A DNA stretch of 64,000 nucleotides from Arenicola marina (Eukaryota > Annelida > Polychaeta > Arenicolidae), in NCBI GenBank assembly GCA_964019135.1, contig OZ025249.1, forward strand, positions 16,393,088-16,457,087, written 5' to 3'. The translations under genes and the position numbers were made by a program. A model generated the notes under the pieces. That model was given only the letters and a program-made list of their open reading frames with translations. It searched no databases and was not told the DNA's origin. Shown here in pieces: positions 7,162-47,499 of the stretch (position 1 is the first letter of the stretch; each line of letters opens with the position of its first letter).

Positions 7162-10100
7162 CTGAAATGAAAACGAAAATGGGATTTCTATATATGTGAA
7201 ACGTCACTGCATATAGTTTGTGAAATTTTAGCCGTAACATAGCTTATGTAGCAACAAAGGAAATTTTCTCGCATCCTATGCTGCTTTGGTTCGGCTGGTC
7301 AAAACTTAAACACTTGCTTGTTCCAATATAAAGTCAAAGTCATAAATGCCGTAGAGACACGTTTCGGCCCATATTTTTCGCGAATTTGCCTCGATCATTC
7401 TCAAAATCACTGACGTGAGAAAGCAACACTAGACCATTTTAATGATACTGAACTTACGTTTGTACTGCAATGTTATCCTTTTTCAAGACACAAACAATAT
7501 TTCTCCATGCTAACACTCCATTGGGAGCAGACACACTTTCGCAAAGACTAAATCACAGACAATGAAAGGCTCTATAGTTGCCGTGGCATCCTCGTGGCTG
7601 GTATAAATATAGAGCATGTATTGTTCAAAGCAAGTTCGGCGCCATGGCAACCATCATTTTATGACGCGTGTTTTAGTATTTTGGCGACAGAGAGCCCTCT
7701 GCCAATGGCGTGTCAGCATGGAGAAATATTCTTTGTGTCATAAAAACGGATAACATCGCATTGCAAACGTAAGTTTGGTATCATTAAAATGGTCTAGTGT
7801 TGCTTTCTCACGTCAGGGATTTTTAGAGTGATCGAGGCAAATTCGCCGAAAATATGGGCCGAAACGTGAGTCTACGGCATTTATGACTTTGACTGTAGTT
7901 ACCGTGCGTGAGGCTCGCGCCTAGAACCTTGAGCCGTATATGGGTTTAGAAGAAACACCAATCACAGTTCGTTTCCGTCGTATGTGGCTATATTCGTAAT
8001 CGAAACATTTTTTCCCTACAGCTGAACACCTTAATCAAGTACCGTCTAAATCGAATGACCATGCTAACCTGCAAAACAGCTGAAAGATTTCGGCAGTGTC
8101 GGAGCAGTCGAAGATGAGGCTGCGGTGCTGCAGGAGGATGGTGACGCAGAGGAAGACATCAAATGTGAAATCTGTGTTGCCGGGCGCCTCCTCCACCTTG
8201 TTCTTGCCACCTGGTACATTCAAGGTCATCTTCAACTCACCACGTCAGGTGTATAATATTAATACTACTAATAATAATAATAATACATAGCTTCATTACT
8301 TAAGGCCTGAGGCCCTTAGTACAGTAAAATAACGAAAACATTTCGATTGAAAAAAAACGCTCTTCAAATACTGGTGGAATGTTCATTCATTGCGGTGTAA
8401 ACATAAGCAGCGAGACTGCTTACGACGGTTTTCTCCTGACTTAACATTAAATCTATAAATTCCTGTTCCGTTAGGACACCTTGACAAATTCAGATACCGA
8501 GTTCTTATGTCATCATCAAAAGGACACACCATTATAAAGTTAAATAATGAATAAAATGAATAATGGCCATAAATATAACCTGAAGTTCAAATTTGTAGTA
8601 CAGTGATTGTCTCGCTCTATTCATTTTGTAACAATAAGCATGCGATGACAACATGTCGAGCTTAACACACTCTCCCTTCTCTCATAATTTCTCACCCCGG
8701 GCTTCTGAACTTAGTAAAACAGTACAAGCGTATGGAATTTATGTCAGATAACATTGACCCACCTATCCGCCCAAACTGTTAATATATTTCAAACCAATCA
8801 AGATTTAAGATTTTCTACAAATGTCCGTGACAGTTTCCACCGATCGCCTCCCTCATTGTGGCTTCTCTGTCACTAGCACCGTCTTAACTGTCCCCAGCAC
8901 CGTCTCAACTGTCACCAGCACCGTCTGTACTGTCACTAGCACCGACTCAACTGTCCCCAGCACCGTCTCAACTGTCACCAGCACCTTCTCAACTGTCACC
9001 AGCACCTTCTCAACTGTCCCCAGCACCGTCTGTACTGTCACCAGCACCGACTCAACTGATACCAGCAGTCACCAGCACCAACTCAACTGTCACCAGCACC
9101 GTCTCAACTGTCACCAGCACCGACTCAACTGTCACCAGCACCGTCTCAACTGTCATTAGCACCGTCTCAACTGTCACCAGCACCTTCTCAACTGTCACCA
9201 GCACCTTCTCAACAGTTCACCAGCACCGTCTCAACTGTCACCAGCACCGACTCAACTGTCACCAGCACCGTCTCAACTGTCACCAGCTCCTTCTCAACTG
9301 TCACCAGCACCATCTCTACTGTCACCAGCACCGTCTCAACTGTCACCAGCACCGTCTGTACTGTCACCAGCACCGACTCAACTGTCCCCAGCACCGTCTG
9401 TACTGTCACCAGCACCGACTCAACTGATACCAGCAGTCACCAGCACCAACTCAACTGTCACCAGCACCGTCTCAACTGTCACCAGCACCGACTCAACTGT
9501 CACCAGCACCGTCTCAACTGTCACCAGCACCGACTCAACTGTCACCAGCACCGTCTCAACTGTCACCAGCACCTTCTCAACTGTCACCAGCACCTTCTCA
9601 ACTGTCACCAGCACCATCTCTACTGTCACCAGCACCGTCTCAACTGTCACCAGCACCGTCTCAACTGTCACCAGCACCGTGTCAACTGTCACCAGCACCA
9701 GCAAATTCCCATAATTTTCAAATTTTACGTGATTTGGTGACCACACCTGTACTCTGGAAGTCTTGTCGCCGGTGTACCTCTCGCAGTCTCTCTGCTACCA
9801 GGCTGCTCACCTCTAAGTGCTGACTTCGCAGAATTTCAAAACACTTGAACGAATCTGGTAACGTGAACTCACGTTTAAAACTCAACAACAACCATCTGGA
9901 AACGCAAAGAAATAGAAGGGTGAAAAAAAAAATCCTTGCACATGCAAAGTTACTTGCCGCAATATTCTCCAAGCAGGAATGTCTTATAATTGAAAAATGC
10001 CATTATCTGTTGTTGCGACAAACTAAGATTGCCGATACCAGTATGATGCAGGTAAGATAACCTTTGTGACTATATGCTTACCTATGACAAAACGTAAGAT

Positions 10101-13100
10101 CACCGATACCAATAGATACAAGTAAGGGAACCTTTTGATTATATGCTTACCTATCACAAAACGTAAGATCACCGATACCAATAGATACAAGTAAGGGAAC
10201 CTTTTGATTATATGCTTACCTATCACAAAACGTAAGATCACCGATACCAATAGATACAAGTAAGGGAACCTTTTGATTATATGCTTACCTATCACAAAAC
10301 GTAAGATCACCGATACCAATAGATACAAGTAAGGGAACCTTTTGATTATATGCTTACCTATGACAAAACGTAAGATCACCGATACCAATAGATACAAGTA
10401 AGGGAACCTTTTGATTATATGCTTACCTATGATAAAACGTAAGATCACCGATACCAATAGATACAAGTAAGGGAACCTTTTGATTATATGCTTACCTATG
10501 ACAAAACGTTAGATCACCAATACCAATATGCTGCAGGTAGATTAACAGATCTGGATCTAGCTCTTCCAGCAAGTGGCAACAATGGTCTAAACAGAAAGAA
10601 AGACCACTGTCTATTTCGTACTGCTAGCAACTGGTCTGTGGTATAACATATACAGGTGTACAAATAATGGTGGCGTCGAACGTCTACACAGCAACAAAAG
10701 TATCGTTTAATAAATTTGTTTTTAAACTAGCAATGACTCTCGCACCATAAGTACAAGTCGTTCATCGAGATATATCAGTGGCGACCAAATGCTACATAGC
10801 GTATACTTTACTTCGAGTTAATACCGAACAATTTCCTGCAGGTATAGGTCCAGGTTATATCCCATGGAATTGATTGATGTAGAGAGGGCGCTGCGTGCGA
10901 GTAATACGTGAGATATACCGAAACACTGGTTCGGCAGAAAATGAAGAATGGCGGACCACAGACCTTGTAGAATTGTAAGAGTGCGGCGTGAAATGCAATG
11001 AAGTGAATTGGTGTTTTAGGCCGCTTTCGTGCGCACAAGGGTTAAACTGGGCCAAGGAACCTCCCGGGGCGATGAAGGATGAACGGATAAAACGTGCCAC
11101 AGATTATGTGCCCGGACCCTGATTCGAACCCAGGACCTATTGATCTGCGGTCTAGTGCGCTAACCACTACAGCAGGGAGGCCCCCATGACCTATTGATCT
11201 GCGGTCTAGTGCGCTAACCACTAACAGCGGAGAGGTCCCCATGACCTATTGATCTGCGGTCTAGTGCGCTAATCACTAGAGCAGGGAGGCCCCCATGACC
11301 TATTGATCTGCGGTCTAGTGCGCTAATCACTACAGCGGAGAGGTCCCTAGGACCTATTGATCTGCGGTCTAGTGCGCTAACCACTAACAGCGGAGAGGCC
11401 CCCATGACCTAATGATCTGCGGTCTAGTGCGTTAATCACTACAGCAGGGAGGCCCCCATGACCTATTGATCTGCGGTCTAGTGCGCTAATCACTACAGCG
11501 GAGAGGTCCCTAGGATCTATTGATCTGCGGTCTAGTGCGCTAATCACTACAGCGGAGAGGTCCCTAGGACTTATTGATCTGCGGTCTAGTGCGCTAATCA
11601 CTACAAAGGAGAGGTCCCCATGACCTATTGATCTGCGGTCTAGTGCGCTAACCACTACACCAGAAAGGTCCCCCTGAATGCGGCGTGAAGGACTCTCACT
11701 TAGTTTTCTAAGCATTCCCTCCTCCAGGAAATCCATTCGAACAGGCTCCAGATTCATGTAATGCTCAAAGCACCAATAGGTTTCCACCTGAAAATACAAA
11801 AGAAATCCGTAGTACTACCAACTACACGATAACATCCACCCTTTCTTTGACTTTACATATTACAAAATACCGATAACCTTCCGAACACGGGGTTTTAGTG
11901 ATATGTAAGTCATACAGCATTACAGGCTATTTGATGTAATGCAACACAATAGTTAACTGTCTAATACCGAAGCGCATTACTTAAACATATACAGTGTACC
12001 ATCGTAAATGGTATAATACCTAAACATATTCATAGCAGCCTGAATTACCTCCGAGTCAAAGACTTGCAGAAATAGGCTGGCAATGTCGTTCATGCCCTGA
12101 GCGTAGCCGACATCAGGGTGGAACACGGCGTAAGTGACCAGCACGTCTCGTAACGTGCGTAGATGTGGGTTACCATCTCCCCTGGGGAAACCCAAACGAT
12201 ACCGACATGGAGTGGCATTCGCCATTATAACTCTCAGTGACCAGTCCTCTACACGTCAAGGAGTGGCATTCACCATTATAACCCTCAGTTACCAGTCCTC
12301 TACACGTCATGGAGTGGCATTCGCCGTTATAACTCTCAGTTACTAGTCCTCCATACGTCATGGAGTGGCATTCGCCATTATAACTCTCAGTTACCAGTCC
12401 TCTACACGTCAAGGAGTGGCATTCACCATTATAACCCTCAGTTACCAGTCCTCTACACGTCATGGAGTGGCATTCGCCATTATAACTCTCAGTTACCAGT
12501 CCTCTACACGTCATAGAGTGGCATTCGCCATTATAACCCTCAGTTACCAGTCCTCTACACGTCAAGGAGTGGCATTCGCCATTATAACCCTCAGTTACCA
12601 GTCCTCTACACGTCATGGAGTGGCATTCGCCATTATAACCCTCAGTTACCAGTCCTCTACACGTCATGGAGTGGCATTCGCCATTATAACCCTCAGTCAC
12701 CAGTCCTCTACACGTCATGGAGTGGCATTCGCCATTATAACTCTCAGTTACCAGTCCTCCACACGTCATGGAGTGGCATTCGCCATTATAACCCTCAGTT
12801 ACCAGTCCTCTACACGTCATGGGAGTGGCATTCGCCATTATACCCTCAGTTACCAGTCCTCTACACGTCATGGAGTGGCATTCGCCATTATACTCTCAGT
12901 TACCAGTCCTCTACACGTCATGGAGTGGCATTCGCCATTATAACCCTCAGTTACCAGTTTTCTACACGTCATGGAGTGGCATTCGCCATTATACCCTCAG
13001 TTACCAGTCCTCCACACGTCACGGAGTGGCATTCGCCATTATAACCCTCAGTTACCAGTCCTCTACACGTCATAGAGTGGCATTCGCCATTATAACTCTC

Positions 13101-16100: not shown

Positions 16101-19100
16101 ACCAGTCCTCTACACGTCATGGAGTGGCATTCGCCATTATAACTCTCAGTTACCAGTCCTCCACACGTCATGGAGTGGCATTCGCCATTATAACCCTCAG
16201 TTACCAGTCCTCTACACGTCAAGGAGTGGCATTCGGTATTATACTCTCAGTTACCAGTCCTCTACACGTCATGGAGTGGCATTCGCCATTATAACCCTCA
16301 GTTACCAGTCCTCTACACGTCATGGAGTGGCATTCGCCATTATAACCCTCAGTTACCAGTCCTCTACACGTCATGGAGTGGCATTCGCCATTATAACTCG
16401 CAGTTACCAGTCCTCTACACGTCATGGAGTGGCATTCGCCATTATAACTCTCAGTTACCAGTCCTCCACACGTCATGGAGTGGCATTCGCCATTATAACC
16501 CTCAGTTACCAGCCCTCTACACGTCAAGGAGTGGCATTCGCCATTATACTCTCAGTTACAAGTCTTCTACACGTCATGGAGTGGCATTCGCCATTATAAC
16601 CCTCAGTTACCAGTCCTCTACACGTCATGGAGTGGCATTCGCCATTATAACCCTCAGTTACCAGTCCTCTACACGTCATGGAGTGGCATTCGCCATTATA
16701 ACCCTCAGTTACCAGTCCTCCACACTTCATGGAGTGGCATTCGCCATTATAACCCTCAGTTACCAGTCCTCTACACGTCAAGGAGTGGCATTCGCCATTA
16801 TAACCCTCAGTTACCAGTCCTCTACACGTCATGGAGTGGCATTCGCCATTATAACCCTCAGTTACCAGTCCTCTACACGTCATGCAGTGGCATTCGCCAT
16901 TATAACCCTCAGTTACCAGTCCTCTACACGTCATGGAGTGGCATTCGCCATTATAACCCTCAGTTACCAGTCCTCTACACGTCATGGAGTGGCATTCGCC
17001 ATTATAACCCTCAGTTACCAGTCCTCTACACGTCATGGAGTGGCATTCGCCATTATAACCCTCAGTTACCAGTCCTCTACACGTCATGGAGTGGCATTCG
17101 CCGTTATAACTCTCAGTTACCAGTCCTCTACACGTCATGGAGTGGCATTCGCCATTATAACCCTCAGTTACCAGTCCTCTACACGTCATGGAGTGGCATT
17201 CGCCATTATAACCCTCAGTTACCAGTCCTCTACACGTCATGGAGTGGCATTCGCCATTATACTCTCAGTTACCAGTCCTCCACACGTCGCGCTGAGAAGA
17301 TTGCCAGTCCGGATGCAGGGGCGGATCCAGCAGGCAGTCATGCGAGGGTCACAAGCGGGCGCAGATCCAGTAACTTGAAAGGGGGGAGGCACTTGAGTAT
17401 CGAAATTCTTACGATCGGGTGGGGGGTCCACGGAACCAAAATAAGGGCTGCCCTTGCAAAAGGTAATCCACGCTCCAAAACTTAAAAGGAGGGGAGTACT
17501 CAGACCCCCCAATACTACCGCTCAGATATTTTTATAATGCATTTGCCGGAACCAGCAGCAATAACCTGTGACCCTTAACTACCTACCAAGCAGGGGTCCC
17601 AGGATCCCAGTGACCCCTCCTTGGATCCTCGCCTGGGATGTACAAGATATGCCCGGAGGGTGGCGGCCCTTGTGATGAGATGCCAGAAACCATTACATGA
17701 CAAAATGGGGATCTTGCGTGGAGAATATCAAAAGTATATTATCTATAAAGCACCCTAAAGAGACCAGGCATACTTAATTTGGGTCACTTACTTGAAGTAT
17801 GCAGATCCTCGGTCCGTGCGAGGCACATCCTTGTCGATAACTTTCAATGAAGAAACAAAAGATTCCCTGTTCATGTTTTGTCGACCAGCATATACCTACA
17901 TGTAAAAACAATATGTTTACCGCATTATAATACAGGTAATATATTGCTGGTATAAATACTGCTACAAATACCCTGTTACACCCCGATACACTGCAGTGGC
18001 GGTGATATGTTCTTCAAGGTCAAATATTAATATGATCACACAGAATTTTGAGTAATTTGTTCTAAAATTTACATTGCAATCATCATATGAGTTATCCCAT
18101 GTCGTTTATGTAGATTTAGTCGTCCATGCCGGATTACAATAGCAAAGGGTATCATCAATGAAAAAACCTGTCATTCCCCTGACCCCAACTAAGTAAAGGG
18201 TAATCTCATTGGCGAAGCAATGTCATGAACATTGTCGCAGAGGGAAATATAATGAGAAACACACAGCGTAACACACATGTAACAAATTGACAAGGACAAA
18301 CTATATACGATTATGATAATAAGCCTTATGAAGAACATTTCTGAGGTTGAATTGTAACCGCATTAACAAGGTAAAGCAGACCTCGAATTTACTCTGTAAT
18401 CTGAAGTTAATAGACCTGGGTGCTGGACAACTAATTAACACAAACCTGGGTGCTGGACAACTAATTAACACAAACCTGTGCTTGGAATGTCAGAAAGGTC
18501 TCTTGCTGACTGCGATCTGCGGCTCCCTCTGCACCCTCACCACTGGAAGATGATAAGTGAATTTCTGGACTTTCAGCTTCAGGAATTTCTTTCAAGTAAT
18601 TTGGATGGAGCAGCTTATCGCCATCGCGATCAACTTCTGAAATAGAAACAGACTATTTGTTACAATTATTCCAAGAAATATTGATTTGTATGCATCATGC
18701 ATATTCAACATAAAGAAGTAAACTATTCTTTAGTACCTATTGATGCAAACTACATGTTGAACATTTAAATATATGACAATATGAAAATAAGAAAAACGGA
18801 AATAACTACGATACTCCCACTAAAGTGAAGTTTTAGTTGTAATCAATCAGGGTTTTCTCGTGATAAATCACCCAATAATATCTGTAAAATAAAAAATATG
18901 AAACGTTATCAAAGATATCACAGGAGAGATGCTCGCTACAATGCTACCAAAATATTTCTAAACTGGTTGCAATATCAGCAGGGTTTACACTCACCACGGC
19001 TAAGTATGAGTTTCCACCGATGCTTTAGGGCTTTATACTTGGCTGAGTAATCACCCATTAACACATCCCGCTCTCTGCATCATAAAGATAAAGACAACAA

Positions 19101-24005: not shown

Positions 24006-24223
24006 TTGTCATATTAGAAGTTAGTTATTTGACGAATCCTACACGGACGCCTAATGAACTTTCAAACAACCCGTTTGTATGAACACAGATGTTGCTTTGA
24101 TTCGATAATTAGAGTAAGGTTACTTTTTAAAGGAAGCTTAATTATATTAAAGAAATTGCCAATGGATAGATGTTCGAAGATCTTAATAGATCTAACTTAT
24201 CTCTAGATATAGACTAAGCTTAA

Positions 24224-24809
24224 TTATTACGAGTTGGTGGGCATGTTAACTAGTACAATAGCGTTACATCTGAAGGCCTCTAAAATGCCGTATTCTGACC
24301 CAAACCGCCCTGCTGCCCATGCAATCGACAATCGTTGCCATGGCGACGCTGCATAGAACAATGAAACATGACGTCACGCACAAAAGAATTGTAGTTATAG
24401 CTTTAAATAGCCCGCTTCCATGACTAGTTGCCTAGTTGCACATGCTATGTTTCTTGGCAACATATATATGGTATAAAAAGGCGACTGGCCAACTATATGT
24501 GGAAAGGCTTGCGATTTGCGGACAGTCAGTCCCAAAATGCTTTACTTTTGTCATTGCATACGGAAATTAAACCAAAAAAGCAGAGACAAGTCAACGCCTT
24601 AAATTTAAATTCAACTCGTAATAATAGTGATAGCGCGAGTTTTGCTTGGCGCTAGGCATTTTATTGGCCCTTCATCATACTGTAGCAGCCCTTCATTTTC
24701 ATTATCCGCCCTCGGCCTTGCGGCCTCGGGCCGATAATGAAAATTGGCGGGCTGCTACAGCTTGATGTCGGGCCAATAAAATTGCCTAACGCCCCGCAAA
24801 CTCGCGCTA
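24224..24809. mobile_element. TIR MITE plus palindromic foldback element, copy B
   Basis: Near-identical second copy of the whole composite, offset exactly 804 bp: MITE 24224-24624 and palindrome 24631-24809. Flanking sequence before the two copies (about 23208-23330 and 24110-24220) is also related but more diverged. This points to a tandem segmental duplication rather than two insertions. Confidence 0.88.
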
Positions 24810-28325: not shown

Positions 28326-31300
28326 GTTGGCACTTAGCCCTGGCCTGGGCGCATTTCTTTGGGAAGTTTGGGCCAGGTTCGGTATACCTGTATACGCCCA
28401 GGATCCGTGACAGGGAACTTCCGGGTGTGCCGCAGATCGACTGACACAGGCCGGGGGGCTGTGGGGTGTGCTGATAGGGATATGCCTATTCCAATGAAAT
28501 GTACACACCATTTACATCTGGTGCGAATAGGGGCACTGGAACCTGGGAACCAACCTACTCTCGTCACCTTTCAATCAGCTGCCAATTTTCTTGAATGGGT
28601 ACATCAGCATATACTTAATGGATGCATGCCATGCGCACCCATACCCGGGTGAAAGAAGTGTAAGATGGTATACTGATGCGTAAAATGTGTATTCGATCTT
28701 AGGGAGATATATCCGGATTACTAAAGAAATACGCTTCTTGTAATATAGCTCACTTTGACCGCAGTCCGTTTTGACTGCTGGATGATTTGACTATAAAAGT
28801 GTGGATGGGAAGGGTGTGTAGGCCTCATATGTGGCTGGGGAATGGGACCCTGTCTCGTTACTTCAGGCAGGCAGCCAGCTCATCGGAATACAGGATGCCC
28901 ATCTCTGTCTTCTCGCCACTGTAGCTAATGTTGCTTAGCTGATATGGCTGACGCCTCCGGCCCGAAGAACTTTACTGAACTGAACCGAAGAACCCTTTCC
29001 TGCTGCCCACCCCATCCGCCATGTTTCAGCTGATTAATGATAACAACCAGCTATTTCAATCCCTCTTCACCTGGGCGTACCTCTACCCCTTCAAATATTG
29101 ACCAAGGTCTACCACCATACCTAACACAAATTTTAACCCCCCACCCTTTTGGCATCCAGCAGCAAAAATAGGTGTAAACTAATCCCATATTAGCTTTGAC
29201 ATTAAAACCCATGCACACTAAGGGTTTAGATAAGTTGCATATAATTTTCCTGTCTCAGTCATCTGGAAGTAAATATATTTAAAAAAAAGTTCTTTGCTAG
29301 AAGGATAGTGACATATACTTTCTGAATCCTTGAGTGTCAATTTCACTATAAGGTAAATATTCAGAGTTCTATCCTTTAACAGAGATGACAGTAAAAATGT
29401 ATTTGTGTCATGACATATATACACACCTCCCCAGCAGACATGTGATACTAAAGAAATTTTAAGACTGCCTATGCCTATGTCATACAACTTTATCTATGAT
29501 TTACACATTGTGAAAGTGCAACTGTTTATTCTGTGTACCACTAATTTATACTGGTATGATTCAGAAGTGATAATGTTTTTAATTTTGTTCTGTTATATAG
29601 ACATTGGGAAAATTGCCTACAATCCCAAGGCAGGGCCAGAAGATACCTTAGTGTTTAAGCACTACAATGCCTGTGAGGTAAAAATGCATATCTATATGTA
29701 TAAATTATATCACATAATATCATATGATAAATATAAGTTAGATAATTAAGCATATGACCCATGAACAACATGGGAATGATAGTATATGCTATTGTCAAAC
29801 AATAACATTAGTCATGTATAAAAATATAGCATTTATAACTGAAGTAAGTGGTATGAAAATGAAGTAAATGCAATTGCAGACATTGGTTTGATTTTAGTTC
29901 TCTTGTATGTCATCACTTCATGCAGGTGGTTCAGGGCAAGTCCATGGAAGAGTGGCTTCGCTTTGCTGTTTGCTTCTGGCACACTTTCAGGGGAACAGGT
30001 AAAGGAATTGCATCAGTGTTGACAATCTGGTATAGTATGCGGATTTCATACTTCATCAGAACAGGATGTATCATTGATCTTTATAGTGGGTTACGGGTAT
30101 AGTTCTATTTTGTTGTTCTGTATCCCTTAGATAAGTTTCAATATAGCTACTCATACAGCAGTTTTAGACTTTCTCCAACCTTTTTTGTCCCATGCACTAC
30201 ACACAGTATCAGATTTCCTCAGTGTTTACCCTGTAATCAATGCATATATTGTAAGAATATCTATTAATATCAGTAAATTTCATTGTCTGGGAGCTGGCTT
30301 TAATCCCAATAGTGAAGCAATAAATTAGTTTAGTGCATCGCACATTCGACTATTGTCCTGTATACTCTCCTAGGCTAGCCCAAGCAACTGGTGCATTGTT
30401 CGAATCCCACCTTTTTGTACATGACTCTGCCGGATAAAGATGCCATGTCTATCTGCACAAAGAGTGGGGGGTTACTCTCGGAGACATGGCTACTCTTCCT
30501 AGATTCTTCCCATTGTCGCTTTATGATCTTATCTATGCAGGTTAAAGCGACAAACTTAAGCATGATTTTCCCCAGTATGTTGTAGAGAGAAATGGTATTA
30601 TATTTTGTTTAAGGTTTGGATCCATTTGGAGCTCCAACCATAAAGAGACCATGGGATGATGGCTCCGAGAGCATCGCTAACCACAAGAGAAGATTGCGTG
30701 TTGCATTTGAATTCATGTCGAAGTTGGGGGTCAAGTACTGGACTTTCCATGACAGGTGGGTAATTAACCTTCCTGTTGTTGAACTGCTTAAAGTAAGTTG
30801 TCGTCAGTTATGCATGTTAATATATGCACTAATTGTAACACGTATCCATTATGTGTGTTTAAACCCGTTGTAGCAGCAATGTTATTGTTTATCATCTACA
30901 AAGTTAGGTAAACTGGCTACAGGCGAATGAGCCTCTTAAATGGAAATCATTAACAGCAATTCTGTGTAACATTGCTATATGGATATCTTGTGCCACCTGA
31001 AGATGCAGGGTTTGGTGATTTTTACCCTATAGCGGAACACTATTTTTAAGTTATATTATTGAACGTTAATAATAGCAAATTATTTTTAATTGTATGCAAT
31101 TTAATCTCACAAAAAGGTCATCTAGAATAGAGCACAATATGAAAGTAGTACATTTATTTCTATTTTGTCAAAAAAATCCTTTATCATATACACTATCCAG
31201 GGACATATCGCCAGAAGGTTCCAACATAAAGGAATCTAACGCGAATCTGGATGAAATGACCGACTTGGCACTGGAGTTACAATCCCAGTATGGTATCAAG

Positions 31301-34300
31301 CTGCTATGGGCCACGTGTAACCTGTTTGCTCATCCCAGGTATGTACTGTGGACCACGTGTAACCTGTTTGCTCATCCCAGGTATGTACTGTGGACCACGT
31401 GTAGCCTGTTTGCTCATCACAGGTATGTACTGTGAACCACGTGTAACCTGTTTGCTCATCACAAGTACGTATAGGGACCACGTGTAACCTGTTTGCTCAT
31501 TCCAGGTATGTACTGTGGACCACGTGTAACCTGTTTGCTCATTCCAGGTATGTACTGTGGACCACGTGTAACCTGTTTGCCCATCCCTGGTATGTACTGT
31601 GGACCACGTGTAACCTGTTTGCTCATCCCAGGTATGTACTGTGGACCACGTGTAACCTGTTTGCTCATCCCAGGTATGTATGGGGACCACGTGTAACCTG
31701 CTTGCTCATCCCAGGTATGTAATTTGGACCACGTGTAACCTGTTTGCTCATCCCAGGTATGTACTGTGGACCACGTGTAACCTGTTTGCCCATCCCAGGT
31801 ATGTACTGTGGACCACGTGTAACCTGTTTGCTCATCACAGGTATGTACTGTGGACCACGTGTAACCTGTTTGCTCATCATAGGTATGTACTGTGGACCAC
31901 GTGTAACCTGTTTGCTCATCCCAGGTATGTATGGGGACCACGTGTAATCTGCTTGCTCATCCCAGGTATGTACTGTGGACCACGTGTAACCTGTTTGCTC
32001 ATTACAGGTACGTATGGGGACCACGTGTAACCTGTTTGCTCATCCCAGGTATGTATGGGGACCACGTGTAACCTGCTTGCTCATCCCAGGTATGTATGGG
32101 GACCACGTGTAACCTTTTTGCTCATCCCAGGTATGTACTGTGGACCACGTGTAACCTGTTTGCTCATCACAGGTATGTACTGTGGACCACGTGTAACCTG
32201 TTTGCTCATTACAGGTACGTATGGGGACCACGTGTAACCTGTTTGCCCATCCCAGGTATGTACTGTGGACCACGTGTAACCTGTTTGCTCATCCCAGGTA
32301 TGTACTGTGGACCACGTGTAACCTGTTTACTTATCCCAGGTATGTACTGTGGACCATGTGTAACCTGTTTGCCCATCCCAGGTATGTACTGTGGACCACG
32401 TGTAACCTGTTTGCTCATCCCAGGTATGTACTGTGGACCACGTGTAACCTGTTTGCCCATCCCAGGTATGTACTGTGGACCACGTGGAACCTGTTTACTC
32501 ACCCCAGGTATGTAGTGTGGACCGCGTGTAACCTGTTTACTCATCCCAGGTATGTACTGTGGACCACTTGTAACCTGTTTACTTATCCCAGGTATGTACC
32601 GTGGACCACGTGTAACCTGTTTGATCATCCCAGGTATGTACCGTGGACCACGTGTAACCTGTTTACTCATCCCAGGTATGTTCTGTGGACCACGTGTAAC
32701 CTGTTTACTCACCCCAGGTATGTACTGTGGACCGCGTGTAACCTGTTTACTCATCCCAGGTATGTACTGTGGACCACGTGTAACCTGTTTGATCATTCCA
32801 GGTATGTACCGTGGACCACGTGTAACCTGTTTACTCATCCCAGGTATGTACTGTGGACCACGTGTAACCTGTTTACTCATCCCAGGTATGTACCGTGGAC
32901 CACGTGTAACCTGTTTGATCATCCCAGGTATGTACCGTGGACCACGTGTAACCTGTTTGCTCATCCCAGGTATGTACTGTGGACCACGTGTAACCTGTTT
33001 GCTCACCCCAGGTATGTAGTGTGGACCAGTTGTAACTGCCCATGCAGGTATCTACTGTGAACTAATGGTACGACCAATGGCAGTGCAAGGCGTTACATAT
33101 GAAAAGGGCAGCCTAGGTCTTTTACGATTCGATTCTCGCTAGTCTACAACAAATGCCCCTTGTAACTTCCAGTCAAGAAATTATTGGCTGAATTTCTCCA
33201 AGTTTAATTTGCCGGGTAATAGCGCCTGTGCTATATGTTGTATAATGCGATCTGCATTGCTGGTAGCGTATGACACTGAGCACGCCACTTTCCAGGTACA
33301 TGAACGGGGCGGCTACCAACCCGGACGCTCATGTCGTGGCTTTTGCTGCTGCGCAAGTCAAAAAAGGTCTTGACGTTGCCAAGAAACTTGGCGCGGAAAA
33401 TTTTGGTAGGTGACCTTTGACATGAGTAGTAGCAGACGGTGTATGTGTTGATGGCCCGGTGGGCAGATCAAACCGAGAGACCACAAGAACAGAATGTCTC
33501 TGTTTAGTGCCGATCTTTAAATCCTACTGATGTGGACGCACAGCTGTGTGTATTAGTTATGAAATCATAAGATTTATCATTGTAAACGCGGTTTGCAGGT
33601 AAGCTTACGACTGATGCATTATCGCTCGATCCATGTGAATGCATGGGTAAAACATGTGACTCGTTGCGTTCGACAGTTTTCTGGGGAGGTCGAGAAGGCT
33701 ACCAGTCCTTGCTGAACACGGATATTGCCGCTGAGTTGTCACACATGGCGAATTTCTTCAAGATGGCTGTCGGTATGTGTGTTGTCGTGATCACCGTACT
33801 AAAGCTTGTGCGTGTATTGTTGCGCGAAATAGTACCTAGTCTAGTTATCACTTTTATCAAACTATATTATTAAAGTTGATTTGGTATATCGGTATACACT
33901 TAATGCTACCTCGTCTTTATAGGATAACTCCAGTTCTACGTCTGAACGGAAGGACAATTGGTGATTTCGGAAATAGTTTAAAGTGTTCGTTATTCATGTA
34001 TTCGCTCTAGCCATTTTGGAAACGATATCACTTCACCTATGTTCATTTGTCACGGTAGCGTACAAGAAGAAAACTGGCTTTAAAGGTCAACTGTTTATAG
34101 AACCTATGTGTTTTTTGTCACGGTAGCGTACAAGAAGAAGATTGGCTTTAAAGGTCAACTGCTCATAGAACCTAAGGCCAAAGAACCGACTAAGCACCAA
34201 TACGACTATGGTGAGATTAATGTGTACATACATAAATATATATGCATATATCCACTATCGAATGTTTCTGACTGTTTTTCTATTCAGTAGGGATGCCTAC

Positions 34301-37300
34301 CGAGTTATGAAATAATAGTGATAAATTATATTTGTCACTTGAAAGTAATCAATGCATATTATCAAGGGTTTTAACGACAGTAACAAAATGACCAGGACGT
34401 TAACACTAAAACTGCATTTTTCAGGAGAAGCATCAATCCTATAATATAATTATAAAATGAAGTATATATTGACCATCAGTCGTCTGATGACCATCATTTT
34501 CGGTGTCTGTATAACTGCTTATTTATCACAGACGCCATGACAGTAATTGGGTTCCTCAAGCACTTTCACCTCGAAGACGATTTCAAATTGAACGTGGAAC
34601 CCAATCACACAACGCTGGCAGGTCACGTGTACGAGCATGACGTCATCATGGCCGCCAAGTGAGTTGTCTTCTCCGATAGCTGGTGCCCTGGACAGCGGCC
34701 TGTGGCAGAATTACGTTGTTTAGTATAAAGAGGTTTAGGCAGTTTGTGCCATGAATACATGCCCAGTGGTAATAACGTATTTTGTGTTCGCAATAATGTT
34801 AAAGTCCATATCTTATGTCCTACGTTACTTTGCATATATTTGGTCCATTTGCACTATATTAACGAGATTCCCTACGCACTGAATTTATTTGCCATCAATA
34901 TTAACAATATTAGCGATTTTATCACAGACCTACCCAAAAAGGTAGAAGATGGACAGGGGCAACTTTTTCATTGATTCGTGACGTCACAAGATGAACCGGT
35001 TTCGTTGCGCAATACGGTAAACGCGACTTTTGAGCATGGCGTCTATAGGAGGGCCCATCGTCCTTCCGCATCGATCGGGGTGCAGCTATGCTAGCGCGAT
35101 AATTCGGAATTAATGATTGTTAGAGTGAAAAAGGACAAGTGGAGGTATCCGGGCAACCGGAGCATGTGTTCTGCCGCCGTACGTATCGCTTCGAGCCATC
35201 TCGACTGGAGATTGCTAAGGAACTGTAGAAGTTGAAAACCTCAAAACGCCCTTCGCAAAAAAGTAGTGCGAACGCCTCATTCATAAAAAGTGATGTTTAT
35301 TATATCATGGGATCTAGATCAAAAACCTGCAAATATGTCTTATAATCAAATAAAATATTAATTGGGCGACCAGCAGACAAATTGGTGAAAGCTACTTAGT
35401 TATTTGTCCCAACCGGACACCATAACGTTCGGGTTTCCACAAGTAGTCGGCGCGTTTAATATCTGCCGCCTCGCTTTCGTAGATATTGTTGTCCGTGTAC
35501 CATTTGCAGCCACGATTTATGTATTTATTTGCTCCATTACACGAGACCCGTGTGATTTTAACTTACTTGAAAGTGTATCTCCTTTAATAACAGCACAACA
35601 CGATAGTCTCTAGCATAAAGTATAGCAGACGAAGATGTGTTGACAGCCGTCTTTTTATGACGTCGTAAGGTGAAGGTCATATTACTGCGTTTTCATTGGT
35701 TAAAAGAAGTAAGCCCAAAGGAGAGTCTAATATCAGGCACTAGAACAGGGGACAGAGCATTATGTGCCCATGCAAAGTTTCTATACTAACAGTAATTTTA
35801 GCGTCTCAAAGCAAAAGCAATGCAAAAGGAATGAGTTTGTAGCTTCAATGTTCATATATATGAGTGGAACTATAAACGCATGTAAGCTTAATTCAAGTTA
35901 CGGCTTGACATTGACACAACGTAACCCCCCTGCCCAAAATACCAGCAATACTATCGCCCACATACATGACAGATGACAAGGTAAACAGAGCGACGGCCAT
36001 AGCTAAACTTGTCCGCTTCGTTTGCGTGAAACTCATAATGTTGGTATCATGTGAATTTATTTGACAACAGGAATGTGAGTGCGCCAAATTCTGTTGGGTC
36101 TTTGGTTCAAGTTGACAAATATAAACTGATTTTAGGCTTGTCAATGAAACATTTCGTGACAAATTAGAAAACGAGGCGGCAAATAGTTTCCGTGCCGACT
36201 ATAAAATGTACGTGATGAATCATATGACTAGATTGGTGCGCTGCCTGTGTTTTAGGCTAGGCCGATAAATGCCGCCCTCCCTCCCTTTTGATGTGCGTAA
36301 AGAACTTCTTTTAATATATACATTTAACCCTGGATCTAGATTGTATGTCTACGATTGGACGGACGTCCCCGAGACGGCCCGTCCCCTACTGTAGCCTAGC
36401 CCACCCTTTCCATTTTTGGAAAGAAACGTAGCCCGTAGGCTGGCAACACTGGCAGTGGCAGTGGCCACTGCAGCTGTTTGTTTTCAGTAACAGTCTGTGA
36501 GTCATTGTCACGAATGTTGCTCTAACCAACAAGGTCACACCTCTAATGTCATAGATCAAGGTCTATCTAGATCTACATGTGGCAAATGTTCATCATGAGT
36601 TAATGTTAACCGAAATAAACTAAGTTAAGAGCTTCCCTGCTGCACGTACATTCATTCAAACAGCGCGGGCAGTCGAAGCGAGCGAGACGCACTCAAACCG
36701 GTTCATCTTGTGACGTCACAAATCTCTACTCTGGGCGGGGGTTTGGAAATGGATCGTTCGCTGCTTGAGTTTATTTTTGGCGACTTTAGATATTAATATT
36801 TATGGCATAAGAGACATTGTAAAATAATTGCATCTGATAAATGGCTTTAGTAACCACTGGGAAATGTATATTTGGAAGTGATTTAGTAACAAATACCCCC
36901 CCAAGAGATGGACTTTAACGTGTTATTTAAAGACCATTTTTGAAATCTTTGCTTTTTGTGATTATTAGCTCTTGCCCTTTGCTTCTGAGCCATGTGAAGG
37001 TTTAAGCGGCGAAATCGTGGCTGGCGGTGTCTTCTAAATTTAATTTTGAGCTACAGATAGGACGGAAAATTCTGTAATTTGGAGGATGAACACTTGGGTA
37101 TTGTATGAATCGGTAAACAGTAGAGGCCAGACTGGCGGCTTTCTGTAACATTATATATTGTGTTCATTCTGCAGGACGCACATTGGTCCGATATAGCCGT
37201 GATTTGTCGTATGTTCAAGACGCTTTAACCAATTCTGATCATATCGCATCCATTGGAGAAGAAAAGGAAGAGCGGAACCATATGCCGGGGGTACCTCCCT

Positions 37301-40300
37301 ACTCTGTAGATAAGGATCTTTGGTCCACTACGACCACACAGACATGGCAACAACAGGGCTCGAATCACCTATTAACGTGCCGTTAGGCTCTCAGGTGGCC
37401 AGAGCCCTCAATGCGAGGGCTCTAACCCACTGAGCTATCCGGGCGGCCCTCAAATACTGCGTGAACGTCAATGAAGCATTCCGCCTCTCTGTTCTACCCC
37501 TGCTCCTTCCCTTTTACGCGAGGTGACCGTAGATGTGAAATAAAATGTGTTTACGCCAATATTGTGACCATAAAGGCTAATGTGGGCCAAGCAAGCCTTG
37601 TTTCCTGCCCGATGACGCCAGGCGTTGTCACGTCATAACTTACTAGTGACTCTCTGATTGTCCTCGCCAGGCTTGGGATGCTCGGCTCCATCGACTCCAA
37701 CACTGGCTCTCCGGACTGTGGCTGGGACACGGACCAGTTCCCTATGGATGTGAAGAACAGCACCATGGTCATGAAGGTGGGTACAGATCAGCAAGTGGAA
37801 AAGGACCTGAAATGTTGATAATTTCGACCGCTTATGTGCACATGAAGGCTAAATTGGGCCATAGAAACTAGCCGAGACAATAAAATGGGGTTGGATGAAA
37901 GTTCCCCAGATACCCGGGCCGGGGTTTGTAACCACGCCATTTTGGTCTGCAGTTCAGCTTTATTATCAATTGAGCTAGAGAGGCTTCCTCTCATGAAGCT
38001 GGTTCTTGTATTGGAGGCGGGTTCTTGTTATCAAGTTGGTTCTTGTTAAAAAGGTGGGTTATTGTCATAATGGTGGGCTATAGTGATTCTGATAGTTAGG
38101 CCAGTGGGTGGGGTCCCAGTGTCCCAGAGCTCCTTAAAATTATGGGACATCCGAAAAATAATGGGACATTAATTTAAGTGAAATATTCCGTAGTCTGCTC
38201 ACTCTATATTTACAATGCGTCACCATGTCCCCTCACAGCTCAGTGAAATGCGTCATTTAGAATTGTTATGTGACGCATGACTCGTACCTATCAGAATCAC
38301 TGTTGTCATGAAGGTGAGTTGTGATATTTCAATCTTTAAATTTATTAAACGGTTCTTTTTTGGAAGTTTGTTATAAGAGGAGCACATTCCGTAAACAGCT
38401 GTTCATGGTCGACGGTACATCGGTTGCCCGAGGCCTTCAAATAGCTGTGTGACTGTGGTTTCTGGCTTTCACGTGGTCATGGCAACCGGGTTGACGTTTG
38501 TGGTTTTCCATAGCGGGGAGCCGTTCTATTGTTGTTTCAACTACCCTCATCGCTCATTCACCGACCTCTGTCCACTGACGCTGGTCGCCACCCGAACCGG
38601 CTCGCATTATCTCCCGTCGGTCCGGCCATTGTTTCTGAGGGAGGTTGGGGGTGGGGGGTTGTATTCCCCTGAAGATCATCTTTCTCCCCTGTGTGCCGAA
38701 TGTAGCGTCCACGGGTCCGTGCGTGCGGTGGAGGGAGACATGCTGGGGTGGGGGTGGGCGAGGGGAGGAGAGGGGGGTATCGGAAATAAGACCCACACCC
38801 TGGACTAACGAGAGATCGAGTACATGTGCCTCCTAAGTACCCGGATGGGGTATGATGGCAGTCTTCAGTTACCAAGGCGTGTCTTTAGAGAGAATTACGT
38901 TGGGGTGTGACTGTTCTACCTACGCTCTCCGACTAATAGAGTGCGAGGGGGTACGGACACGCGGGAAAATTGCTCCGGACAACTGCCCCCCAGGCAATGA
39001 CACCCCGGACAACTGCCCCACCCCGGACATTGATACCCCGGGCAATGACACCCCGGACAACTGCCCCACCCCCGGACATTGATACCCCGGGCAATGACAC
39101 CCTGGGCAATGACACCCCGGGCAATGACCCCCCGGGCAATGACACCCCAGACAACTGCCCCACCCCCGAACATTGATACCCCGGGCAATGACACCCCGGA
39201 AAACTGCCCCATCCCCGGACATTGATACCCCGGGCAATGTCACCCAGGACAACTGCCCCACCCCCGGACATTGATACCCCGGGCAATGACACCCCGGACG
39301 ACTGCCCCACCCCCGGACATTGATACCCCGGGCACTGACACCCCGGACAACTGCCCCACCCCCAGACATTGATACCCCGGGCAATGACACCCCGGACAAC
39401 TGCCCCACCCCCAGACATTGATACCCCGGGCAATGACACCCCGGACAACTGCCCCACCCCCGGACATTGATACCCCGGGCAATGACACCCCGGACAACTG
39501 CCACACCCCCAGACATTGATACCCCGGGCAATGACACCCCGGACGACTGCCCCACCCCCGGACATTGATACCCCGGGCAATGACACCCCGGACAACTGCC
39601 CCACCCCCAGACATTGATACCCCGGGCAATGACACCCCGGACAACTGCCCCACCCCCAGACATTGATACCCCGGGCAATGACACCCCGGACAACTGCCCC
39701 ACCCCCGGACATTGATACCCCGGGCAATGACACCCCGGACAACTGCCCCACCCCCAGACATTGATACCCCGGGCAATGACACCCCGGACAACTGCCCCAC
39801 CCCCGGACATTGATACCCCGGGCAATGACGCCCCGGACAACTGCCCCACCCCCGGACATTGATACCCCGGGCAATGACACCCCGGACAACTGCCCCACCC
39901 CCAGACATTGATACCCCGGGCAATGACACCCCGGACAACTGCCCCACCCCCAGACATTGATACCCCGGGCAATGACACCCTGGACAACTGCCCCACCCCC
40001 GGACATTGATACCCCGGGCAATGACACCCCGGACAACTGCCCCACCCCCGGACATTGATACCCCGGGCAATGACGCCCCGGACAACTGCCCCACCCCCAG
40101 ACATTGATACCCCGGGCAATGACACCCCGGACAACTGCCCCACCCCCGGACATTGATACCCCGGGCAATGACGCCCCGGACAACTGCCCCACCCCCGGAC
40201 ATTGATACCCCGGGCAATAACACCCTGGACAACTGCCCCACCCCCGGACATTGATACCCCGGGCAATGACACCCCGGACAACTGCGCCACCCCCAGACAT

Positions 40301-43300
40301 TGATACCCCGGGCAATGACGCCCCGGACAACTGCCCCACCCCCGGACATTGATACCCCGGGCAATGACACCCCGGACAACTGCCCCACCCCCAGACATTG
40401 ATACCCCGGGCAATGACACCCCGGACAACTGCCCCACCCCCGGACATTGATACCCCGGGCAATGACACCCCGGACAACTGCCCCACCCCCGGACATTGAT
40501 ACCCCGGGCAATGACACCCCGGACAACTGCCCCACCCCCAGACATTGATACCCCGGGCAATGACACCCTGGACAACTGCCCCACCCCCGGACATTGATAC
40601 CCCGGGCAATGACACCCCGGACAACTGCGCCACCCCCAGACATTGATACCCCGGGCAATGACGCCCCGGACAACTGCCCCACCCCCGGACATTGATACCC
40701 CGGGCAATGACGCCCCGGACAACTGCCCCACCCCCGGACATTGATACCCCGGGCAATGACACCCCGGACAACTGCCCCACCCCCAGACATTGATACCCCG
40801 GGCAATGACACCCCGGACAACTGCGCCACCCCCAGACATTGATACCCCGGGCAATGACGCCCCGGACAACTGCCCCACCCCCGGACATTGATACCCCGGG
40901 CAATGACGCCCCGGACAACTGCCCCACCCCCGGACATTGATACCCCGGGCAATGACACCCTGGACAACTGCCCCACCCCCGGACATTGATACCCCGGGCA
41001 ATGACACCCCGGACAACTGCGCCACCCCCAGACATTGATACCCCGGGCAATGACGCCCCGGACAACTGCCCCACCCCCGAACATTGATACCCCGGGCAAT
41101 GACACCCCGGTCAACTGCCCCACCCCCGGACATTGATACCCCGGGCAATGACACCCCGGTCAACTGCCCCACCCCCGAACATTGATACCCCGGGCAATGA
41201 CACCCCGGTCAACTGCCCCACCCCCGGACATTGATACCCCGGGCAATGACACCCCGGACAACTGCGCCACCCCCGGACATTGATACCCCGGGCAATGACG
41301 CCCTGGACAACTGCCCCACCCCCGGACATTGATACCCCGGGAAATGACACCCCGGACAACTGCGCCACCCCCGGACATTGATACCCCGGGCAATGACACC
41401 CCGGGCAATGACGCTCCGGACAACTGCCCAACCCCTGGACATTGATACCCCGGGCAATGACACCCCGGACAACTGCGCCACCCCCGGACATTGATACCCC
41501 GGGCAATGACGCCCTGGACAACTGCCCCACCCCCGGACATTGATACCCCGGGAAATGACACCCCGGACAACTGCGCCACCCCCGGACATTGATACCCCGG
41601 GCAATGACACCCCGGGCAATGACGCTCCGGACAACTGCCCAACCCCTGGACATTGATACCCCGGGCAATGACACCCCGGTCAACTGCCCCACCCCCGGAC
41701 ATTGATACCCCGGGCAATGACGCCCCGGACAACTGCCCCACCCCCGAACATTGATACCCCGGGCAATGACACCCCGGTCAACTGCCCCACCCCCGGACAT
41801 TGATACCCCGGGCAATGACACCCCGGACAACTGCGCCACCCCCGGACATTGATACCCCGGGCAATGACGCCCTGGACAACTGCCCCACCCCCGGACATTG
41901 ATACCCCGGGAAATGACACCCCGGACAACTGCGCCACCCCCGGACATTGATACCCCGGGCAATGACACCCCGGGCAATGACGCTCCGGACAACTGCCCAA
42001 CCCCTGGACATTGATACCCCGGGCAATGACACCCCGGACAACTGCCCCACCCCCAGACATTGATACCCCGGGCAATGACGCCCTGGACAACTGCCCCACC
42101 CCCGGACATTGATACCCCGGGCAATGACACCCCGGACAACTGCGCCACCCCCGGACATTGATACCCCGGGCAATGACGCCCTGGACAACTGCCCCACCCC
42201 CAGACATTGATACCCCGGGCAATGACACCCCGGACAACTGCCCCACCCCCAGACATTGATACCCCGGGCAATGACACCCCGGGCAATGACGCTCCGGACA
42301 ACTGCCCAACCCCTGGACATTGATACCCCGGGCAATGACACCCCGGACAACTGCCCCACCCCCAGACATTGATACCCCGGGCAATGACGCCCCGGACAAC
42401 TGCCCCACCCCCGGACATTGATACCCCGGGCAATGACGCCCCGGACAACTGCCCCACCCCCGGACATTGATACCCCGGGCAATGACACCCCGGACAACTG
42501 CGCCACCCCCAGACATTGATACCCCGGGCAATGACACCCCGGACGACTGCCCCACCCCCAGACATTGATACCCCGGGCAATGACACCCCGGACAACTGCC
42601 CCACCCCCGGACATTGATACCCCGGGCAATGACACCCCGGACGACTGCCCCACCCCCAGACATTGATACCCCGGGCAATGACACCCCGGACAACTGCCCC
42701 ACCCCCGGACATTGATACCCCGGGCAATGACGCCCCGGACAACTGCCCCACCCCCAGACATTGATACCCCGGGCAATGACACCCTGGACAACTGCCCCAC
42801 CCCCGGACATTGATACCCCGGGCAATGACGCCCCGGACATTGATACCCCGGGCAATGACGCCCCGGACAACTGCCCCACCCCCGGACATTGATACCCCGG
42901 GCAATGACACCCCGGACAACTGCCCCACCCCCAGACATTGATATCCCGGGCAATGACACCCTGGACAACTGCCCCACCCCCGGACATTGATACCCCGGGC
43001 AATGACGCCCCGGACAACTGCCCCACCCCCGGACATTGATACCCCGGGCAATGACACCCTGGACAACTGCCCCACCCCCGGACATTGATACCCCGGGCAA
43101 TGACGCCCCGGACAACTGCCCCACCCCCGGACATTGATACCCCGGGCAATGACACCCCGGACAACTGCCCCACCCCCGGACATTGATACCCCGGGCAATG
43201 ACACCCCGGACAACTGCCCCACCCCCGGACATTGATACCCCGGGCAATGACGCCCCGGACAACTGCCCCACCCCCAGACATTGATACCCCGGGCAATGAC

Positions 43301-46300
43301 GCCCCGGACAACTGCCCCACCCCCGGACATTGATACCCCGGGCAATGACACCCCGGACAACTGCCCCACCCCCAGACATTGATACCCCGGGCAATGACAC
43401 CCTGGACAACTGCCCCACCCCCAGACATTGATACCCCGGGCAATGACACCCCGGACAACTGCCCCACCCCCAGACATTGATACCCCGGGCAATGACACCC
43501 TGGACAACTGCCCCACCCCCGGACATTGATACCCCGGGCAATGACGCCCCGGACAACTGCCCCACCCCCAGACATTGATACCCCGGGCAATGACGCCCCG
43601 GACAACTGCCCCACCCCCGGACATTGATACCCCGGGCAATGACACCCCGGACAACTGCCCCACCCCCGAACATTGATACCCCGGGCAATGACGCCCCGGA
43701 CAACTGCCCCACCCCCGGACATTGATACCCCGGGCAATGACACCCCGGACAACTGCCCCACCCCCAGACATTGATACCCCGGGCAATGACACCCTGGACA
43801 ACTGCCCCACCCCCAGACATTGATACCCCGGGCAATGACACCCCGGACAACTGCCCCACCCCCGGACATTGATACCCCGGGCAATGACACCCTGGACAAC
43901 TGCCCCACCCCCGGACATTGATACCCCGGGCAATGACACCCCGGACAACTGCCCCACCCCCAGACATTGATACCCCGGGCAATGACACCCTGGACAACTG
44001 CCCCACCCCCGGACATTGATACCCCGGGCAATGACACCCCGGACAACTGCCCCACCCCCAGACATTGATACCCCGGGCAATGACACCCCGGACAACTGCC
44101 CCACCCCCGGACATTGATACCCCGGGCAATGACACCCCGGACAACTGCCCCACCCCCAGACATTGATACCCCGGGCAATGACACCCTGGACAACTGCCCC
44201 ACCCCCAGACATTGATACCCCGGGCAATGACACCCCGGACAACTGCCCCACCCCCGGACATTGATACCCCGGGCAATGACACCCCGGACAACTGCCCCAC
44301 CCCCAGACATTGATACCCCGGGCAATGACACCCTGGACAACTGCCCCACCCCCGGACATTGATACCCCGGGCAATGACACCCCGGACAACTGCCCCACCC
44401 CCGGACATTGATACCCCGGGCAATGACACCCCGGACAACTGCCCCACCCCCAGACATTGATACCCCGGGCAATGACGCCCCGGACAACTGCCCCACCCCC
44501 GGACATTGATACCCCGGGCAATGACACCCTGGACAACTGCCCCACCCCCAGACATTGATACCCCGGGCAATGACACCCCGGACAACTGCCCCACCCCCAG
44601 ACATTGATACCCCGGGCAATGACACCCCGGACAACTGCCCCACCCCCGGACATTGATACCCCGGGCAATGACACCCCGGACGACTGCCCCACCCCCAGAC
44701 ATTGATATCCCGGGCAATGACACCCCGGACAACTGCCCCACCCCCAGACATTGATACCCCGGGCAATGACGCCCCGGACAACTGCCCCACCCCCGGACAT
44801 TGATACCCCGGGCAATGACACCCCGGACAACTGCCCCACCCCCGGACATTGATACCCCGGGCAATGACACCCTGGACAACTGCCCCACCCCCGGACATTG
44901 ATACCCCGGGCAATGACGCCCTGGACAACTGCCCCACCCCCAGACATTGATACCCCGGGCAATGACACCCTGGACAACTGCCCCACCCCCGGACATTGAT
45001 ACCCCGGGCAATGACGCCCCGGACATTGATACCCCGGGCAATGACGCCCCGGACAACTGCCCCACCCCCAGACATTGATACCCCGGTCAACTGCCCCACC
45101 CCCGGACATTGATACCCCGGGCAATGACGCCCCGGACAACTGCCCCACCCCCAGACATTGATACCCCGGGCAATGACACCCTGGACAACTGCACCACCCC
45201 CGGACATTGATACCCCGGTCAACTGCCCCACCCCCGGACATTGATACCCCGGGCAATGACGCCCCGGACAACTGCCCCACCCCCAGACATTGATACCCCG
45301 GTCAACTGCCCCACCCCCGGACATTGATACCCCGGGCAATGACGCCCCGGACAACTGCCCCACCCCCAGACATTGATACCCCGGTCAACTGCCCCACCCC
45401 CGGACATTGATACCCCGGGCAATGACGCCCCGGACAACTGCCCCACCCCCAGACATTGATACCCCGGGCAATGACACCCCGGGTTCCCGGACAGTGCTGA
45501 ATGGACGTCAGCTTGAAATGTGAAAAACTGACATTTGACCTCTAGCTCATATGGCTGGGCTATCGTTGGCTGTATGACACTGCACTGATTCGCCTGTCAG
45601 TCTTTACATGTGGTTCGATCCATTGACCAACAGCTATAACAAAATGGTAAATGGAGACCAGGAGGGCCTAGAATATGTTATTACCATACGACTAATCCAA
45701 ACCTTTACGTCGCTTGCACTTTGGTTATTACAATCCTGCTGAGGTAAGTTCCGCCTGTAGACGATGTCACATTCACGTTGTCAACAGCAACCCCCCTTAT
45801 ATGGATATGAGTCATGTGTGTCAGGAGGCTGTGACAGCCAACAAACAGACAGGCGAGCTCCAATTAATTCATGGTGAGCACCAAAGGGAGAGGTTCGTTA
45901 GAGGTATGAATATCTCCGAATGAAATTCTGTTTTTGCTGAATAACGCCGATTTGTCATTTTATAACCTGTGTAGAATCTTCAAATGTGATGACCCACCTT
46001 GGAGACAAGGTATGCAATTAAAATAAAACGTCATATGACATATATATCATATACTTTCTGATATGGTTTCGTTGGACCTTTTTGTTATGCGTGTTGCAGA
46101 CTGTTCTTGAGCAAGGCGGCATTGCTCCGGGGGGCCTCAACTTTGACGCCAAGGTCCGTAGAGAGTCTACAGACATCAGGGATATGTTCATCGCACATAT
46201 AGGTAAGAATGATAGGTCAGTTGCACTAATTGTAACATAATACGACCGTATTTGTAGCACTCGCATACGTTTCGTGTGAGAAAAACCGAATGGAGTCTTC

Positions 46301-47214: not shown

Positions 47215-47499
47215 GTAAGCTTTTCCCCAACTACCTTTATATTTATTATACCTTTGTAAGTGCATAGGCGGATATGCATGGCTCCGGCCTATAATGGGTG
47301 GTTCTGCTCTCACTGAGACTCCGTATTACAATGGTTTCTTGAAAACGTATTGTAGTGGCATCGTGACTTCGAGAATCTGGCCATACGCTTACCATGCAAT
47401 GTCGCCATCTAACGGCTGTACATGCAGAGAACCTTCATCCTCGGGTAGCGAGAGATGTTTCTGAAAGACATCTCAGCGGCTTTTAGACAGTCTAAGACC
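47215..47499 (+). other. xylose isomerase intron 13, proximal unique part
   Basis: 285 bp between the exon 13 donor and the 45-47-bp array. There is no sign of the missing last exon here. Confidence 0.65.

Follow-up and report, generated by a model that had tools for sequence, protein, structure and literature searches.

In a 64,000-nucleotide stretch of the Arenicola marina genome (assembly GCA_964019135.1, contig OZ025249.1, positions 16,393,088 to 16,457,087 of the forward strand; hereafter the window, with positions counted from its first letter), the exon 5 donor of a xylose isomerase gene lies within a minisatellite of 42 head-to-tail units that combine the tail of the exon with the head of the following intron. 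The array is a mirage, that is, a minisatellite across an exon-intron boundary. Similar arrays span splice junctions of other genes of this annelid, and we consider it likely, from the sequences compared here, that they represent slippage duplications in a minisatellite-rich genome, which would be neutral, and tolerated at splice junctions since the 5'-most donor would be the one chosen.

The xylose isomerase array is present beyond chance. Tandem Repeats Finder (TRF) called it at 31307-33036 with a period of 42, 41.4 copies, 92 per cent matches, and a score of 2900, and together with our manual split into 42 units this bears out the initial annotation, which had described about 40 tandem copies of an AG/GT junction. 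Unit 1 is the tail of exon 5 itself, measuring 42 bp with its intron start. Units 2-41 comprise 33 with a length of 42 bp and seven with 41 bp; the last, unit 42, is degenerate and 36 nt long. Splice signals recur throughout the array: GT is found in all 42 units, is preceded by AG in 40, and forms part of an exact CAG/GTATGT in 36. The unit length falls within the 10-160 bp given for mirages in the available text of PMC3087553.

The initial annotation let the unit begin at the GT of the donor, but any starting point chosen in a tandem repeat is arbitrary, and the homology starts within exon 5. Its left edge (31307-31308) is at TGGGCC, 31-32 nt from the end of the exon; the third G of this sequence is replaced by A in every inner copy. 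The duplicated segment therefore consists of 31 nt from the end of exon 5 and 11 nt from the start of intron 5, and the acceptor-like motifs in it are coding sequence. Specifically, the exonic part of the unit encodes ...CNLFAHP+AG, the codons being those of the conserved xylose isomerase motif C-N-L-F-A-H-P-R. The layout of branch-like sequence, pyrimidine tract, and CAG that the initial annotation had recognized does exist, but its elements are codons of this motif.

A homology search of the assembly returned nine xylose isomerase exon matches, all within the window, and two further exons were read by eye; a second copy of the gene, which could have served as an empty site, was absent from these matches. 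When exons 5 and 6 are joined at the first donor (31338 to 33296), the product aligns without gaps to PDB 1a0e, in agreement with the exon matches and with the gene identity originally proposed. In translation, first-donor splicing of exon 5 thus yields the conserved protein, and the first donor is most likely the one used, with the rest of the array being intron. The best database matches of this annelid xylose isomerase (29926-47200) are echinoderm proteins (Patiria 82 per cent). An echinoderm origin of the DNA was considered and rejected, because the mitochondrial COX1 on contig C762 reads best with genetic code 5 and is 91 per cent identical to that of Pilargis wolfi (Annelida, Phyllodocida), which makes the genome look like that of an annelid close to Pilargidae.

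As 42 bp correspond to 14 codons, donors 2 and 3 would add 14 and 28 residues in frame, and an open in-frame message is obtained from only three of the 42 donors. The other 39 (donors 4 to 42) are closed by a TGA at 31433-31435, and the seven 41-bp units also shift the frame. Pairing of the inner donors with U1 is mostly between -9.7 and -10.2 kcal/mol (the weakest, in unit 4, reaches -3.3), compared with -5.7 to -13.0 kcal/mol for the eight other donors examined in the gene. Since most inner donors are as strong as the others of the gene, position rather than strength should decide which donor is chosen.

The array was probably born by tandem duplication of the 42-bp segment straddling the exon 5/intron 5 boundary, through slippage or unequal exchange between two short similar sequences that are spaced one unit apart, CTATGGGCC in the exon and CTGTGGACC in the intron. 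Expansion to about 41 copies would have followed. Exon definition would then pick the 5'-most donor, after 31338, and the inner copies would be removed as intron; a message spliced from donor 4 or later would carry the TGA and would be expected to be degraded. Minisatellites are abundant in this genome: they make up 36.2 of the 64 kb of the window (11 merged arrays) and 27.7 of 70 kb in seven stretches of contig C1 picked by position (16 arrays). Additionally, this explanation is supported by two other genes with arrays, ALDH1L1 and a TBC-domain gene of the window, the exons of which also join gap-free to known proteins across their arrays.

Across the genome, a pattern of three AGGTAWGT spaced 30-60 bp apart had 13,557 matches, versus 9,878 for the backward pattern. 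Among the matches listed for this pattern, which cover the first 4.6 Mb of C1, are seven arrays; a left edge is visible in six, four of which start in an exon tail. The four belong to ALDH1L1 (PDB match 2.2e-25), to a gene with an Ig domain (I-set 5.2e-21), to a tubulin-tyrosine-ligase-like gene (TTL 6e-15), and to an open reading frame that has an acceptor and no Pfam match. In ALDH1L1, 169 units of 39 bp separate the two joined exons. The frame of this array (L039/L040, C1:605765-612311; WCDKIQ-VSTARPL), unlike that of the xylose isomerase array, is open to the end of L039, and its inner donors could add 13 residues each. In a 60-bp junction array at another locus (L065), the frame is open through the whole fetched kilobase.

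A thinner donor pattern gave 35 matches versus 17 backward, corresponding to about 20 arrays, and six of the ten with a visible edge were called exon tails. The support for these six is uneven: one has a MUC4-like C8-3 match (8.1e-6), one an ankyrin match (3.5e-4, below the cut-off), and the remaining four were called by their open frame and, in L054, an acceptor. For the backward-motif control, seven arrays were fetched, of which four had a visible edge, in no case judged to lie in an exon tail. The difference between 10 of 16 donor-motif arrays and none of four controls is not significant on its own in this small sample (Fisher p 0.087, or 0.27 on a stricter count of 6 of 16). One control array (L080) adjoins an apparent exon on the other strand; the array is a TGGA microsatellite, and the exon is presumably that of a granulin. 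An acceptor pattern, TTTTCAGG in three copies, yielded 74 matches versus 861 for its backward control, and hence no enrichment when sought in this way.

We also surveyed exons chosen without regard to repeats, from two housekeeping gene families (other genes may differ). Among CCT chaperonins, junction-spanning arrays were found at 4 of 42 assessable donors (L085, L094, L102, and L117) and at 2 of 43 assessable acceptors (L100 and L127). Two borderline cases, the acceptor of L085 and the donor of L084, which is itself the apparent starting point of the array, were not counted. The denominators derive from 49 matches, of which 46 were fetched, the other three being long single open frames that were taken as intronless; last exons (L104, L107, and L116) and L106, with too little flank after its donor, were dropped from the donors, and L103, L122, and L124, with short flanks before the exon, from the acceptors. 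Among proteasome genes, 1 of 22 assessable donors lies in an array (L130; PSMA3 match 4e-8), after removal from 25 matches of L129, the donor of which falls outside the stretch, and of L139 and L140, in which the donor was not located. For donors of both families combined, the frequency is 5/64, or 7.8 per cent (95 per cent interval 2.6-17.3 per cent). With an assumed number of about 10^5 introns, this frequency implies that thousands of donors are affected. At C5:14202022-14202759, two CCT matches are listed in one open frame of 1049 amino acids, although in the fetched DNA the first match is directly followed by a stop; no array of at least 9 bp spans the ends of the two matches.

Several observations weigh against a purely neutral explanation. 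In the CCT survey, which holds seven arrays in 18.5 kb of flank, six arrays lie across junctions where 1.8 would be expected under uniform placement (P 0.011, with thresholds that were chosen after the data had been seen), and junctions may be preferred for a reason that slippage followed by first-donor use does not provide. No array is contained between the two splice sites of an internal coding exon, against an expectation of 3.0 when all exon bases are considered (P 0.05); the placement test left out arrays shorter than 20 bp or with fewer than two copies, an array in the 3' untranslated region of L107, and the L116 array, which crosses a stop codon. The L116 array does overlap coding sequence, and when it is counted, the exon deficit is not significant (P 0.20). 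We regard the junction excess as suggestive and the avoidance of exons as weak. The array in question (C9:22307672-22308255, minus strand) is a 52-bp repeat that straddles the stop codon in the last exon of a CCT gene (DAVRAGDLDG*), and its extra copies fall outside the coding part of the message, as those of splice-site arrays do. Finally, across six arrays, only 5 of 638 donor GT cells are changed, compared with 4.2 per cent of all cells, which may hint at constraint.

Such constraint would favour a regulated role for the inner donors, which could serve as decoys that tune expression through unproductive messages, or as alternative donors that add 14 or 28 residues. As set out above, most inner donors match real ones in U1 pairing, and donors 2 and 3 leave the frame open. 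The donor core (-1..+6), however, is not unusually conserved within the six arrays, in which the windows that equal or exceed it in conservation number 5/42, 32/39, 31/41, 21/38, 34/52, and 13/69, and the numbers of dinucleotides as unchanged as GT (GT included) are 7/42, 7/39, 20/41, 31/38, 25/52, and 45/69. Nor are periods biased toward multiples of 3 (7 of 18 arrays, about what chance would give). Neither the donor core in six arrays nor the frame in 18 gives a clear signal of selection, and we see no clear sign in these sequences that inner donors are maintained. A possible precedent is a minisatellite with units of approximately 12 bp in the human IFI6 (6-16) gene, which reportedly (Turri, in 1995) provides multiple splice donors; it resembles the present array in offering several donors, but here 39 of 42 would close the frame. 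The proposal of the initial annotation that the array supplies alternative donors is supported by the apparent strength of most of them but not by the messages that 39 of the 42 would produce, and we judge a regulated role to be unlikely.

Recursive splice sites are zero-length exons in which a pyrimidine tract and CAG directly precede GT. The initial annotation had suggested that the intron may be taken out step by step at the repeated CAG/GTATGT; each internal splice would then excise whole units and recreate the junction. The array does have this layout, as AG/GT at 40 of 42 junctions is combined with a pyrimidine fraction that is mostly 0.69 (0.56-0.75) and similar to that of the real acceptors of the gene (0.62-0.75); a TAAC can be read about 19 nt upstream of the junction, the unit contains no other AG, and in 7 of 12 other junction units the pyrimidine fraction is at least 0.6. 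However, these motifs are coding by origin. Furthermore, the pyrimidine tail is weak (at most 0.5 at -14..-5) in 5 of the 12 other junction units, which indicates that such a tail is not needed for arrays of this kind and varies with the exon. Intron 5, at less than 2 kb, is short for recursive splicing, and a single 42-nt unit would make a very short intron for an animal. We therefore find recursive splicing unsupported as a cause of the array, and quite improbable on the basis of these sequences.

Duplication of an AGGT exon segment is an established model of intron gain, exemplified by the model of Rogers, by ATP2A1, and by 24-bp repeats in fission yeast (PMC4974935, PMC3087553). The initial annotation had invoked this route, and the xylose isomerase unit does contain the duplicated AG/GT. 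In contrast to a Rogers-type gain, the segment that was copied includes a junction that existed before, and the acceptor does not come from the final copy but lies beyond 237 nt of single-copy intron, which does not resemble the unit (220 of 500 shuffles reach as high a score). The array thus looks like an addition to a pre-existing intron, and its being a recent intron gain is very unlikely. An assembly artefact is hardly credible: although long arrays are difficult to assemble, variants among the units cluster along the array, the flanking exons are intact, and the same kind of structure occurs on other contigs with different units.

The xylose isomerase gene and its surroundings hold further repeats (Table 1). 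Within the gene, the acceptor of exon 8 is itself duplicated, with copies before 34059 and before 34127, and more than 100 copies of 49-bp units occupy 38975-45482 in the intron between exons 10 and 11. On the minus strand, 100 copies of a 51-bp unit with 95 per cent matches (12206-17288) end a few tens of bases before the acceptor of a TBC exon. Elsewhere in the window, more than 350 copies of 47-bp units fill 47498-64000, 21-bp (7-codon) repeats at 8867-9699 lie in a putative Ser/Thr/Val-rich frame that is open for about 180 codons, and near-identical blocks at about 23430-23950 and 24220-24760, recognized from the translations of their open reading frames, are probably a repeated element.

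Table 1. Features of the window. Exon limits were placed by homology to P0001, with splice sites read by eye; exon numbers follow the initial annotation.
Feature	Position	Strand	Basis or remark
Donor array of TBC-domain exon (10496-10586), 69 bp x 7.4	10020..10528	-	TRF; joined exons gap-free to TBC1D17
Probable third donor array, 30 bp x 2.2, CAG/GTTTGT at end of open reading frame (18476-18636)	18414..18478	-	Open frame and acceptor only
Xylose isomerase exon (...FRGTG)	29926..29998	+	Homology to P0001; splice sites by eye
Xylose isomerase exon (...FHD+R)	30614..30755	+	Homology; splice sites by eye
Exon 5, last 31 nt = exonic part of repeat unit	31201..31338	+	Homology; gap-free to PDB 1a0e
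Donor-spanning minisatellite (mirage)	31307..33058	+	42 units, 31 nt exon tail + 11 nt intron head
First GT, probable canonical donor of intron 5	31339..31340	+	Protein from 31338-33296 join
In-frame TGA, closes frame for all donors after the third	31433..31435	+	Frame reading
Single-copy remainder of intron 5, probable acceptor CTTTCCAG	33059..33295	+	Not similar to unit
Exon 6 (...AENF)	33296..33405	+	Homology; splice sites by eye
Exon 7	33677..33772	+	Homology; splice sites by eye
Acceptor-spanning duplication, 68 bp x 2.1 (intron end + exon 8 start)	34035..34174	+	TRF; by eye
Exon 8, second copy (first copy meets stop)	34127..34210	+	Homology; splice sites by eye
Exon 9	34532..34658	+	Homology; splice sites by eye
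Exon 10	37671..37776	+	Homology; splice sites by eye
Exon 11	46100..46202	+	Homology; splice sites by eye

Mirages are a known kind of structure. As described in the available text of the amphioxus studies, they occur in Adh3, the globin genes BflGb6 and BflGb9, and TnC, with similar imperfect repeats in PGBD5; their authors report undisturbed regular splicing along with length instability (PMC3087553, PMC3902484). The same text of the globin paper proposes mirages as a source of new introns. The arrays described here differ in belonging to another phylum, in copy number (about 41 units in xylose isomerase and 169 in ALDH1L1, versus 3 and 6 in two BflGb6 haplotypes), and in affecting, according to our small survey, several per cent of donors instead of single genes. 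Among annelids, earthworm metallothionein genes have intronic minisatellites, and spanning of an exon boundary is not stated in the available text of that report (PMC12783039). Our literature search, which missed most subscription journals, found neither a description of such boundary-spanning arrays from an annelid nor an estimate of how frequent they are across a genome, and as far as it reached, the structure is known in kind but new to this phylum.

It is the frequency of mirages at ordinary splice sites that is surprising and deserves attention. A splice between an inner AG and GT would remove whole units and restore the exon end, so that arrays of this kind can in principle be 'splice-neutral'. 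We tentatively raise the idea, doubtful as it is at present, that minisatellites of this annelid arise preferentially at splice junctions, and that thousands of its introns may start with several to more than 100 near-identical donors in such splice-neutral arrays. If true, either a strict first-donor rule or a clean-up by resplicing would have to operate, and its outcome would be readable genome-wide. Each array constitutes a natural experiment, in which tens of near-identical donors are presented at fixed spacing behind one exon, and the arrays could be used to test how donors are chosen, how much exon definition tolerates, and how often duplications at junctions give rise to new introns or new exon ends.
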